The notes under the pieces are model-generated. The model was not told the origin of the DNA, made no database searches, and saw only the letters and a list, made by a program, of their open reading frames with translations. This document shows positions 27,367 to 34,904 of a stretch of 64,000 nt of DNA, piece by piece; the stretch's first letter is position 1, and every line of letters begins with the position of its first letter. The position numbers were made by a program, and so were the translations under genes. The stretch is from Candidatus Zixiibacteriota bacterium (GTDB lineage Bacteria > Zixibacteria > MSB-5A5 > GN15 > FEB-12): the NCBI GenBank assembly GCA_029860345.1, contig JAOUBJ010000019.1, forward strand, positions 1 to 64,000. The letters are read 5' to 3'.

Positions 27367-27822
27367 TCACTCTGCTATCTTCAAAAGCCTGAGCATCTGA
27401 AGGGTAGTGCCTTCCTGCAGCTTCATGATCAGCGAATCACCTTTGGTCTCACGAACAAAGACACCCTCCGGATTCAACTCGTCGTTACAAGCACCTTCAC
27501 AGCCCTCCTCGGGCCCGGAGTTCTCCTCTTTGAGACGGATTCCTTCGGTAAGCGCATACTGGCCATCGACGGCGCAGAAGCACTCCTGCTCGGTGTAGGT
27601 TGTATCCAGGTTCATGTGATAGGATGTCTCGTCAAAGATGAAAATGACGTGAGACTTGATGGTTACCTGGTCCACACCGGCACCGAAGTTGGTGATATAT
27701 GAGTAAACACCTTCGTAGGTCCCCTTCAGAGGTGCCTCTTCCGGCAGCACTATATCGGACTGACAACTCATGAGCGCTACAATCAGGAAAAGTGCAGCCA
27801 TTAAAGCAAAGAAACGATTCAT
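27367..27822 (-). CDS. Hypothetical lipoprotein
   Basis: 151 residues from ATG 27822, with GGAG eight to ten bases upstream (an adjacent TTG is the longer alternative). The leader ends in VALMSC, a lipobox. The mature part is a beta-rich domain (KGTYEGVYSYIT, HVIFIFDETSYHM, SLIMKLQEGTTLQMLRL) with four cysteines clustered near CFCAVDGQY and GCEGAC, which could form disulfides in the periplasm. It ends at a strong terminator. I do not recognise the family. Confidence 0.7.
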   Translation of the reverse strand: MNRFFALMAALFLIVALMSCQSDIVLPEEAPLKGTYEGVYSYITNFGAGVDQVTIKSHVIFIFDETSYHMNLDTTYTEQECFCAVDGQYALTEGIRLKEENSGPEEGCEGACNDELNPEGVFVRETKGDSLIMKLQEGTTLQMLRLLKIAE

Positions 27823-27825
27823 CAA

Positions 27826-28235: not shown

Positions 28236-28264
28236 TTGACAGTCGGTGAGTCAGGCCGTATAAT
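28236..28264 (+). promoter_or_regulatory. Perfect consensus sigma-70 promoter of the candidate small RNA
   Basis: TTGACA (28236-28241), a 17-base spacer, and TATAAT (28259-28264): an exact match to the sigma-70 consensus at optimal spacing. It is not followed by a coding start; a likely transcription start is 28270-28271. Confidence 0.8.
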
Positions 28265-28269
28265 ATATT

Positions 28270-28343
28270 GAAGTTTGCTGGAGGGCAACTTTCGGGGATC
28301 TCCCCCTCTATCCCCACAAGTCCTTTCGGCAAACTTCTTTTTT
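28270..28343 (+). ncRNA. Candidate small RNA, about 70 nt, with closed terminal stem and C-rich loop
   Basis: Seen: the base six after the consensus -10 opens GAAGTTTGC (28270-28278), which is exactly complementary to GCAAACTTC (28329-28337); a run of six T follows at once. The transcript would therefore be closed end to end by a 9-bp stem that also acts as terminator. The interior holds GGAGGG, GGGGA and two C-rich blocks (CCCCC at 28302-28306 and CCCC at 28312-28315). No plus-strand gene lies downstream within several kilobases, so it is not a leader. Inference: a free-standing regulatory RNA whose C-rich segments could pair with Shine-Dalgarno sequences. It matches no RNA family that I recognise. 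Confidence 0.65.
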
Positions 28344-28377: not shown

Positions 28378-28842
28378 TTAACTGCCGCTGACTGTCTTGA
28401 AGCTATAGATTTTCCATTTACCGTTGACTTTGTGAAGCCCGAAACGGGTCATGTAACCCTTTGATTTTTCTTTGTCCACAAAAGTGACGTCGACGGTGGC
28501 TGTCTCTTCACCCGTGAGATTCACACCGCTGATTATTCGTTGAAGAGCGAACCAGGTTTTTTTGGTCTTGCCCTCGCCGGTTAGATCATCGAGTATCTGC
28601 TCAGGATTGGTGAAGACGCGGGGGCTATCGGTCTGCAGAGCGTAGTCTTCGTTCAAGCTCATCATCAGCTCCGGCAGATCGAGAACATACAGAAGGGCCG
28701 CCTGATCGTCCTTTTCCATGGCGCCGAAAAGAGCGATGACTGTTTTTTTTGGCGCCTCGCTGTCTTTATCCGAAGCGCATCCGCCGATGAGTGCCAGCAC
28801 CATCAGAGCCGGCAGCAGCACACCGAGCCTGCGCATAATCAT
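28378..28842 (-). CDS. Lipoprotein with NTF2-like (DUF4878-type) pattern
   Basis: 154 residues; leader ending in LIGGC, a lipobox. The mature part begins with SEAPKKTVIALFGAMEKDDQAALL and closes with VTFVDKEKSKGYMTRFGLHKVNGKWKIYSF, the helix-then-sheet order and terminal KVNGKWKI strand of NTF2/SnoaL-like DUF4878 lipoproteins. Its ATGA start overlaps the stop of the PorV-like gene by four bases, so it is co-translated with that outer-membrane protein and may work with it. Confidence 0.7.
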   Translation of the reverse strand: MIMRRLGVLLPALMVLALIGGCASDKDSEAPKKTVIALFGAMEKDDQAALLYVLDLPELMMSLNEDYALQTDSPRVFTNPEQILDDLTGEGKTKKTWFALQRIISGVNLTGEETATVDVTFVDKEKSKGYMTRFGLHKVNGKWKIYSFKTVSGS

Positions 28843-29804
28843 CGGGGGAATCCTCCGGTGACGGTAATGCGATGGCTGTCCCCCAGGTCGGCTCCGGGTG
28901 CAAACGCGTAGGCAAAGTGGAGACGTTTGTAATCAAACCCGCAGCCTACACTTAACCCCGCCCACTTATCGTCGGAGTTGCCGGCGCGATAGTTCGAGCC
29001 GAAACTGTTCCAGCCGAGACGCAGGTAAAGCGGTTTGAGTTCATGGTACTCGCCGCCGATGGCAAAATCAAAATCGTTGTCGACCGGGAGGATCAGGTCG
29101 GTGGCCAAAAGGAGAGGCAGTCCGACGGGACGGTAGGAAACACCGCCACGGAAGGTTAGCGGCAGCCGATATTTCTCTTCACCCAACGATGAAAGCTGCT
29201 TGCCGAGGTTTTGTACCATTACGCCGCCGGTAAAGCGTTCGCGATCATCTGAGTACCTGGCGCCCAGATCAACAGCTATTCCGGATGCCGAGAACTCCTG
29301 GACACGCTCATAGATATATTTGGCTGTCACCCCGAGACTGAGGTTATAACCTATCAGCCGACTGTAGGTGGCCGCCAATACCATATCGGCGCCGCCGAAT
29401 GTGCCCAGTAGGCGGCCGCTGGTATCGGTTTCAACGAATTCACCGTATCCGAGATAATCCAGGTGACCGGCAATAGAACTCTGTTCATCCAGCGGGAAGA
29501 TCATGCCGAAAAAGCCTGATTGCATGTCGAGAAAATAGTTGTGGTAGCCGCCTATCCACCGTTTTTCTTTGAAACCTGTAATCCCGGCCGGGTTGTAATA
29601 CAAAGCCGCTTCGTCGTCGGCCAGCCCGGTAGCGGCCCCGCCCATCGCAATCGGTCGGGCGCCGATGTTAATCTTGAGGAAGGGAAAGGCACTGGTGCCC
29701 GCTTCCGAGTGGATCTCGCCGGACAGTATGGACAACGGCGAAAACAGCCAACCTATGATTGTGACAAGCAGGGTCAGTCGTGTGGTTTTGTTCAGCATCA
29801 ACAT
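28839..29804 (-). CDS. PorV/PorQ-family outer-membrane beta-barrel protein
   Basis: 321 residues. After the signal peptide comes the family hallmark AFPFLKINIGARPIAMGGAATGLADDEAALYYNPAG (shown here only as landmarks AMGGA and YYNPAG, residues about 40-75). The rest is a barrel of alternating amphipathic strands ending in HRITVTGGFPR, an outer-membrane C-terminus. In Bacteroidetes such proteins belong to the type IX secretion system (PorV) or the related UPF0164 group; other PorV-containing phyla use it less clearly. No other T9SS gene is in the window. It overlaps the downstream lipoprotein gene by four bases. Confidence 0.82.
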   Translation of the reverse strand: MLMLNKTTRLTLLVTIIGWLFSPLSILSGEIHSEAGTSAFPFLKINIGARPIAMGGAATGLADDEAALYYNPAGITGFKEKRWIGGYHNYFLDMQSGFFGMIFPLDEQSSIAGHLDYLGYGEFVETDTSGRLLGTFGGADMVLAATYSRLIGYNLSLGVTAKYIYERVQEFSASGIAVDLGARYSDDRERFTGGVMVQNLGKQLSSLGEEKYRLPLTFRGGVSYRPVGLPLLLATDLILPVDNDFDFAIGGEYHELKPLYLRLGWNSFGSNYRAGNSDDKWAGLSVGCGFDYKRLHFAYAFAPGADLGDSHRITVTGGFPR

Positions 29805-29889
29805 TTCCTATTCTGGACGTCTTTACACCTTATACTGTTTATCGACTTTCTCGGTCGACGCTCTTATGCACGGGGTCCACTTCATTTCT

Positions 29890-30378
29890 CTACCAACTCT
29901 TGGTGGTACGGTTAATAATCTCGACAATCAGCCGCTGGACGGCACTGTTTTGTCCGTCCTGTTCGGTCTGGCTGTCGACATTATACACACCTTCCTGCAC
30001 CATGTTTTCGCGCCAAATCTCAGAGTCGTTGTCGTTTGGGTTTTTCAATAAGAGATCGAAAGTCATGGTAACGCTGTAAGAGATCACGACGCCGTTTTCG
30101 TCGTACTCAAACGGTTTTCGCTGATAGCCGGTCAGCTCACCCACCAGAACGGCGTCGGCATTATCGGCTGAGACGACTTTCATGGTACCATCGGCCAGGA
30201 AGGCATCGATGACCAGGTCGGTCATGCGATCGGCCAGGTCATACTCGGTAGTCTTGTTGTCGAACCGCTCGACGGCAATTGCCTGAATACTCGACTTGCC
30301 GGCCGGGTTGAAAGTATAACAACCCACCAAAAGCAGCAAGATCGTCGGATACACTGTTAATCGCAGAGCCGGCATCAT
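29890..30378 (-). CDS. lptE: LptE-family lipopolysaccharide-assembly lipoprotein
   Basis: 162 residues. Lipobox LLLVGC then YTFNP at the start of the mature protein, the usual LptE entry (GCGYTF-like). The pattern IQAIAVERFDNKT, LADRMTDLVIDAFLADG, ADAVLVGELTGYQRKP and VTMTFDLLLKN matches the LptE alpha/beta sandwich that plugs LptD in the outer membrane. The start codon overlaps the stop of hutI by four bases. It is separated from PorV by 85 bases. Confidence 0.78.
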   Translation of the reverse strand: MMPALRLTVYPTILLLLVGCYTFNPAGKSSIQAIAVERFDNKTTEYDLADRMTDLVIDAFLADGTMKVVSADNADAVLVGELTGYQRKPFEYDENGVVISYSVTMTFDLLLKNPNDNDSEIWRENMVQEGVYNVDSQTEQDGQNSAVQRLIVEIINRTTKSW

Positions 30379-32950: not shown

Positions 32951-34606
32951 CTACTTTTTTAGCATGGGGATCTTGACTTTGTGCTTACGAGCGAAGTCGG
33001 CTGCTTCTTTGTAGCCGGCGTCGGCATGGCGCATAATACCAGTACCGGGGTCGTTGGTCAAAACGCGGTTGAGACGCTCGGCCATCTCCTGGCTTCCGTC
33101 GGCCACCACAACCATACCGGCATGTATCGCGTTGCCGATACCAACCCCGCCGCCATGATGGATCGACACCCAACTGGCGCCGGAAATAGCACTGAGCAAT
33201 CCGTTCAACAGGGGCCAGTCGGCGATAGCATCGGACCCGTCGAGCATGCCTTCGGTCTCACGATAGGGGGAGGCGACCGAGCCGCAGTCGAGATGGTCGC
33301 GTCCGATCACGATAGGCGCGGAAATCTTGCCCTTCTTGATATAGCTGTTCATAATGTCGGCAAAGCGATCCCGCTCACCGTAACCCAGCCAACAAATACG
33401 GGCGGGTAACCCCTGGAATGGAATCCGTTCACGAGCCAATTTGATCCAGTTAACCAGCGACTTGTTTTTGGCAAATTCTTTCAGCACGATCTCGTCGGTG
33501 ACGGCGATATCTTTGGGGTCGCCGGACAGAGCCGCCCAGCGGAAGGGCCCGCGACCTTCGCAGAACAACGGTCGAACATAAGCCGGTACAAATCCGGGAT
33601 ATGCGAATGAGTTCACCAGCCCGCCGGTCTGGGCCTGGCCGCGCAGGTTGTTGCCGTAGTCGAACACGACAGAGCCGGCTTTCTGAAACTTGAGCATGGC
33701 GTCACAATGCTTGACCATCGACTCGAATGACCGCTTGATATACCCCTTGGGGTCTTTTTTGCGCATGCGATTGGCCTCGACCATGGTCAGCGCCTCGGGG
33801 ATGTAGCCGTTTAGTTCATCATGGGCCGAGGTCTGGTCGGTGACGATATCCGGCACGATTCCGCGGCGGAAAATCTCCGGAAGAATCTCGGCGCAGTTAC
33901 CGACCAAACCGATGGAGATAGGTTTTTTGGACTTGTTATGTTCCTTGATCAGTTTGATCGCTTTGTCCAGCGCCTTCACCTTGACATCGCAGAAGCCCTG
34001 TTTGATGCGACGGTTGATGCGCGACTCATCGACTTCGACAACCAACACCGATGCGCCGGCCATGGTAGCCGCCATCGGCTGAGCACCACCCATACCGCCC
34101 ATGCCGCCGGTAAGAATCCATCGTCCATGCAGGTCGCCACCGAAATGTTGATCGGCGATGGCTGCAAAGGTTTCATACGTCCCCTGGATAATCCCCTGGG
34201 TGCCGATGTATATCCAGCTACCGGCTGTCATCTGGCCGTACATGATCAACCCGAGCCGTTCCAATTGGCGGAACTTGTCCCAATTGGCCCAGTGTGGTAC
34301 CAAATGCGAGTTGGCGATCAGCACGCGCGGCGAGTATTCATGGGTGCGGAAGATTCCAACCGGTTTGCCGGATTGGACCATCAGAGTTTCGTCGTTATCG
34401 AGTTTTTTGAGCGATTTGACGATAGCGTCGTATGATTCCCAGTTGCGCGCCGCCTTGCCACTGCCGCCGTAGATAATCAAATCTTCCGGTTTTTCGGCCA
34501 CTTCGGCGTCGAGGTTGTTGTTGAGCATCCTGAGGGCGGCTTCCTGATGCCATCCCTTGCACGACAGTTTTGTCCCGCGCGCGGCTTTGACTTTTTTGGG
34601 TTTCAC
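32951..34606 (-). CDS. hutU: Urocanate hydratase
   Basis: 551 residues, full length for the family. Landmarks: [16 protein letters not shown] near the N-terminus, [21 protein letters not shown] (NAD region), [14 protein letters not shown], the catalytic-site signature [15 protein letters not shown] and [18 protein letters not shown] near the end. It converts urocanate to 4-imidazolone-5-propanoate using tightly bound NAD+ as electrophile. Product goes to the hutI enzyme encoded downstream. First gene of the minus-strand hut series. Confidence 0.97.
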
Positions 34607-34904
34607 TGACCAGCTCCTGCTTGCATTCCGCGAATATACGGCGCGGATTTCACGATGTCAAACGGGGTTTTTGTGGGTGATAAATCACCCATAAATGGGT
34701 TCCTGCGCTTCGCGGCCTGCGTCCATCATAGCGGTGTGGTCTTGTGGGCAGGTTCTTGTAGGTCAGGTCCTTTATGGACCTGACAGAAAATCAGGCTTGC
34801 CTGTCAGGACCACGAGGGTCCTGACCTACTGAGGAAACTGTCGAAACCTGCCCTTCGACTTCGCTCAGGGCAGTCCTTCGGGCCAGGGGTTTCGACCTAC
34901 TTCA
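34607..34904. repeat. Intergenic composite palindromic repeat (core 34758-34829)
   Basis: Between the 4Fe-4S protein gene and hutU. The core is bounded by GTAGGTCAGG (34758) and CCTGACCTAC (ends 34829) and contains two further hairpins (GTCAGGTCC-TTTAT-GGACCTGAC and GTCAGGACC-ACGAG-GGTCCTGAC). A CTTCGACTTCGCTCAGGGC box follows near 34855. No gene. Confidence 0.7.

Follow-up and report, generated by a model that had tools for sequence, protein, structure and literature searches.

Positions 28270-28343 of the window (the whole stretch of 64,000 nucleotides of Candidatus Zixiibacteriota DNA that was analysed) represent a genuine new family of small RNA, of the known functional kind in which a C-rich loop faces a G-rich ribosome-binding site (RBS). 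The existence of the RNA gene is near certain. Its loop (UCCCCCUCU) is complementary to the unusual RBS AGAGGGGGA of a conserved gene, zf_Tbcl (Pfam PF13451), which on this complementarity is a well-supported predicted target. We consider it fairly probable that the RNA acts in trans and independently of Hfq, blocking translation of zf_Tbcl by pairing of its loop with the RBS. The own sigma-70-type promoter would give a transcript that forms one long self-terminating hairpin; the loop would then base-pair with the RBS in the mRNA of zf_Tbcl, a gene at another place in the genome, and thereby block ribosome entry and turn zf_Tbcl off. We infer the production of the RNA, the pairing and the repressive effect.

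The RNA gene and its hairpin

The gene and its parts lie on the + strand as follows.

28236..28241, + strand: -35 element TTGACA (exact consensus)
28259..28264, + strand: -10 element TATAAT, after a 17-nt spacer (sequence match)
28270..28343, + strand: small RNA gene, a 68-nt hairpin with a six-U tail (fold, covariance-model matches)
28270..28285, + strand: 5' arm of the outer stem, pairing with 28322-28337 (fold)
28288-28291 with 28318-28321, + strand: further outer helix (fold)
28294..28299, + strand: inner stem GGGGAU, pairing with AUCCCC at 28310-28315 (fold)
28300..28309, + strand: apical loop CUCCCCCUCU, ten bases, the proposed seed (fold; complementary to the zf_Tbcl RBS)
28322..28337, + strand: 3' arm of the outer stem, forming with the U run an intrinsic terminator (fold, relatives)
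28338..28343, + strand: terminator U run TTTTTT (sequence; kept in relatives)

A first-pass annotation of this DNA had proposed a free-standing small RNA here, with a consensus promoter, a self-closing terminator stem and no gene following on the same strand. Its description of the site was exact to the base. The promoter TTGACA-N17-TATAAT (28236-28264) is the sole 12/12 match in 19 kb, GAAGTTTGC (28270-28278) has its complement in GCAAACTTC (28329-28337), with TTTTTT (28338-28343) directly after, and the genes that come next (28378-30378) are without exception encoded on the - strand. The start of the RNA was placed at 28270 from the promoter spacing and the conserved base of the stem. Elsewhere in the window, an 11/12 promoter match (TTGACA-N17-TATATT, 34633-34661, - strand) adjoins, on the upstream side, a 551-aa - strand ORF at 32951-34606 that is urocanate-hydratase-like by eye.

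The whole RNA is predicted to fold into one hairpin of -34.8 kcal/mol, compared to a mean of -17.5 kcal/mol for dinucleotide shuffles (z -5.8; 0/200 as stable), and the apical loop is predicted to be wholly unpaired. Two C-rich blocks had been pointed out as resembling the loops of regulatory RNAs. Both are where they were said to be (CCCCC at 28302-28306 and CCCC at 28312-28315), but only the first is apical. Because the inner stem is formed by 28294-28299 with 28310-28315, the second block is in a stem, where it pairs with GGGG at 28294-28297. Since the outer stem begins at base 1 and its 3' arm is the terminator, the main single-stranded part of the molecule is the apical loop.

Distribution and covariation of the family

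Searches by blastn against 98 related genomes returned strong matches in the genus and, in other families, weaker ones centred on the loop. A first covariance model, built from 11 sequences, had single-copy matches across the order. A second, built from 46 sequences, found the RNA in 50 of 80 genomes of the order Candidatus Zixiibacteriota, one per genome at E <=0.01, recovering it also in G009, and in 0/52 genomes outside the order. On inspection, four weak matches (G020, G053, G076 and G100) turned out to be plain terminators or stretches of coding sequence, very short in their interior, and were rejected.

Changes on both sides were seen at 19 of the 21 base pairs of the 46-sequence alignment, which was fitted to the structure; an 11-sequence MAFFT alignment by itself gave 11/21. 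In the larger alignment, 92.5% of cells were paired and 0/500 shuffles were as good. Double-sided compensatory changes occurred in 13 of the 14 modelled pairs of the outer helix (28270-28285/28322-28337; 46 sequences) and in 6 of the 7 modelled pairs of the inner stem, in which 94% of cells were paired. Folded singly, almost all members took on this architecture, and one hairpin with one loop is the plan of every member of the family. The loop core CCCCUCU was invariant in the first 19 sequences, and the wider set contained one exception, CCCCUCG in G064. Over the loci of the order, the RNA measured 67-89 nt including the tail; the lengths vary in steps other than threes, and therefore the RNA is not coding sequence.

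The promoter has been kept along with the hairpin. The -35 element was an exact TTGACA in 48 of 49 homologous loci (shuffles: mean 0.9, maximum 5), mostly 28-30 nt upstream of the 5' end of the RNA. The -10 element was looser in the relatives than the -35 (TAAATT, TAGATT, TATATT), and 41/49 loci had at least 5/6 of the -35 together with at least 4/6 of the -10, compared to a shuffle mean of 1.6. Conservation of the promoter and the stem, on which the first-pass annotation had made its proposal depend, thus extends across the order, as do the compensatory stem changes and the C-rich loop that it had named as support to be sought in relatives. All this argues for a free-standing small RNA.

The RNA was not found at the orthologous place in 20 genomes with an intact operon, in stretches that covered first ~1 kb and then, if the contig was long enough, up to ~4.5 kb searched without filters, and scans for long hairpins at these places found nothing alike. 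Its presence in all four families suggests that the RNA is ancestral in the order and was lost several times.

The predicted target

The annotation had also suggested that the C-rich sequence may mask Shine-Dalgarno sites, to be followed by target prediction against ribosome sites; zf_Tbcl was the gene that such a prediction brought out. We searched 26 RNA-bearing genomes for the complement of the loop, AGAGGGGG, 2-10 nt before an ATG, blind to gene identity, and the downstream frames were translated and clustered. Among the ~55 ORFs of at least 55 aa obtained, 12 (from 12 genomes) were zf_Tbcl and the rest were essentially singletons. The recurrent protein is the small zf_Tbcl protein of 70-100 aa (PF13451, E 1e-14), the gene of which was detected by an independent protein search in 72/79 genomes of the order.

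The RBS of zf_Tbcl is GAGAGGGGGA or near it. By script count, GAGGGG precedes the gene in 44 of 46 RNA-bearing genomes, and AGAGGGG does so in 38/46 (37 by script, and G054 after correction of its start). In the background, which consists of 315 genes in the retrieved RNA loci, the two motifs precede 1/315 and 0/315 genes, respectively. All 44 of the 44 loop/RBS pairs taken from the same genome form 7-11 consecutive Watson-Crick pairs, while 8/315 background sites reach 7. In genus g4 there is a local match of AAUCCCCCUCU with AGAGGGGGAUU. Own-genome pairs were slightly better than swapped ones when Watson-Crick pairs were counted (6/400 swaps as good, among related genomes with kinship ignored), but with G-U pairs allowed they were not clearly better, swapped pairs being as good in 43/400. 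In the window's genome, the duplex with zf_Tbcl has a predicted energy of -18.7, and 3/316 background sites (relatives and window pooled) reach -17 or lower, so that other genes come close to zf_Tbcl and a ranking by energy in this one genome does not decide for it. The RBS is predicted to be partly folded in the isolated leader. In sum, the loop finds its complement in an RBS that is both conserved and unusual, as would be expected of an RNA that masks it.

It is rather unlikely, in our view, that the RNA is a real trans-acting C-rich-loop regulator whose main targets are other or many G-rich mRNAs, with the zf_Tbcl match one of many or incidental, or with activation as the outcome. Known C-rich-loop RNAs do control many genes (PMC3771888, PMC10470900), the motif also occurs at acetate/butyrate kinase starts in two genomes, and zf_Tbcl retains its G-rich site without the RNA too, GAGGGG preceding it in 26 of 27 genomes in which no RNA was detected. 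However, only zf_Tbcl recurred strongly when the genomes were searched for the motif. Moreover, the exact motif before ATG was not enriched over a reversed control (24 versus 65), and therefore it is not a general RBS. In favour of zf_Tbcl as the target, the longer AGAGGGG was kept less often in genera with checked absence of the RNA, 6/12 versus 28/32 (Fisher p 0.015, kinship ignored). As a separate observation, the acetate kinase gene of the window's own genome and a butyrate-kinase-like gene of G012 start directly past AGAGGGGG and may be further targets.

Gene neighbourhood and local explanations

The neighbourhood is conserved, with the RNA converging on an operon for a lipoprotein, a PorV-like protein and LptE. 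On the RNA's own strand there is no gene downstream in most genomes.

27367..27825, - strand: F2, lipoprotein-like, no Pfam match, upstream; near the RNA in 25/49 loci
28378..28842, - strand: F1, small lipoprotein-like, no Pfam match, convergent; beside the RNA in 35/49 loci
28839..29804, - strand: F0, PorV-like outer-membrane protein (Pfam below cut-off), convergent; near the RNA in 41/49 loci
29890-30378, - strand: LptE, after F0, in an operon with F1 and F0

The operon does not always come directly after the RNA: several families have an inserted gene there, for either a small rhodanese-domain lipoprotein or a cold-shock-domain protein.

Throughout the order the RNA and this operon are convergent, and the RNA might accordingly act in cis on F1-PorV-LptE, as an antisense RNA or by transcriptional interference. 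We regard this as very improbable, given that the RNA ends at 28343, before F1 (28378), and does not overlap it, that the adjacent gene varies among families, and that conservation falls on the loop, for which position by itself gives no reason. It is hardly credible that the element is merely an intrinsic terminator, or a convergent one for the opposite operon. The hairpin and U run do make a good terminator, lying between genes and 3' of a convergent operon, but a terminator would not explain the promoter held at a near-fixed distance in 48/49 loci or the near-invariant loop CCCCUCU, and the + strand has no gene to terminate. A bidirectional terminator was rejected, since in the window the hairpin, read on the - strand, is not followed by a U run.

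Other elements of the zf_Tbcl leader

A second conserved element, CANGGANG, is located ~15-25 nt upstream of the zf_Tbcl RBS (own genome, G000:C13 ~101715-101764). It sits in a small hairpin with short covarying arms (GUC-ACGGAA-GAC, AAC-AGGGAA-GUU) that, from its sequence, looks like a CsrA-binding site. A CsrB-like RNA that sequesters CsrA is the least probable explanation for the hairpin at 28270-28343, extremely so: CsrA is encoded in 73/79 genomes of the order and the zf_Tbcl leader has this CsrA-like site, but the loop of the RNA is C-rich in all members and lacks GGA, for which reason a CsrA sponge was rejected; GGGGAU belongs to a stem, and several members (G028, G033, G037, G047) do not have it.

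Outside the order, the zf_Tbcl RBS is GGGGGGA, and in several cases a hairpin formed in cis encloses it together with the start codon. In family f8, both the RBS and the start codon are in a stable cis hairpin (for example, CCAUAAACC...GGGGGGAUUUAUGG), which hints that genomes lacking the trans RNA exert control in cis. The G-rich site in RNA-less genomes and the GGGGGGA outside the order indicate that part of the G-richness predates the RNA or is independent of it. Probably the G-rich RBS came first, and the RNA may have been shaped in evolution to fit it. It is possible, if doubtful, that the RNA and zf_Tbcl form a one-RNA/one-gene switch, in which the hairpin co-evolves with the RBS, the CsrA-like hairpin of the leader adds a second control at the RNA level, and outside the order a cis hairpin may replace the RNA.

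Relation to known RNA families

The first-pass annotation recognised no family, and Rfam agrees with it: neither the window nor the RNA in the loci of 16 relatives gave a match at the gathering score of any family, and with E up to 10 just four unrelated weak matches were returned. The RNA combines its own promoter and terminator with a conserved single-stranded seed and no downstream gene, traits of trans-encoded small RNAs. Those that depend on Hfq need it in the host; however, Hfq (Pfam PF17209) was found in 0/79 genomes of the order, with 5 control genomes positive.

In Staphylococcus aureus and Helicobacter pylori there are C-rich small RNAs that use a C-rich motif to target G-rich RBSs; the Zixibacteria RNA shares this arrangement but is shorter and has no Rfam match. 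The 6C/B11 RNAs of actinobacteria are also hairpins with C-rich loops complementary to G tracts in the 5' region of mRNAs, and B11 pairs with such tracts, repressing the mRNAs, without a known chaperone (PMC10470900). Complementarity of this type is present here with the zf_Tbcl RBS. However, B11 carries C-rich loops on two hairpins, one on each, while the Zixibacteria RNA, from another phylum, has one hairpin with the core CCCCUCU and did not reach the gathering score of the 6C RNA/B11 model of Rfam. In Xanthomonas, sX13 is Hfq-independent and represses through C-rich loops directed at G-rich motifs near translation starts, and the C-rich small RNAs of S. aureus and H. pylori were named as structurally similar to it (PMC3771888). 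It differs in having 115 nt, three stems, three loops and a broad regulon, compared to the single hairpin of 67-89 nt in the Zixibacteria RNA, which comes from another phylum and matches no Rfam family. The best model would be a mechanism akin to those of 6C/B11 and sX13, with the RNA a member of neither family.

Significance

Our literature search found no paper on small RNAs in the Zixibacteria phylum and next to nothing on the zf_Tbcl protein family. The comparative evidence for the RNA is unusually clean, including a specific predicted target, and comes from a lineage without Hfq. The RNA would be another case, probably an independent one, of C-rich loops directed against G-rich RBSs, in a very small format. 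It would also be a first starting point for learning when these bacteria produce a zinc-finger protein that is conserved but uncharacterised.
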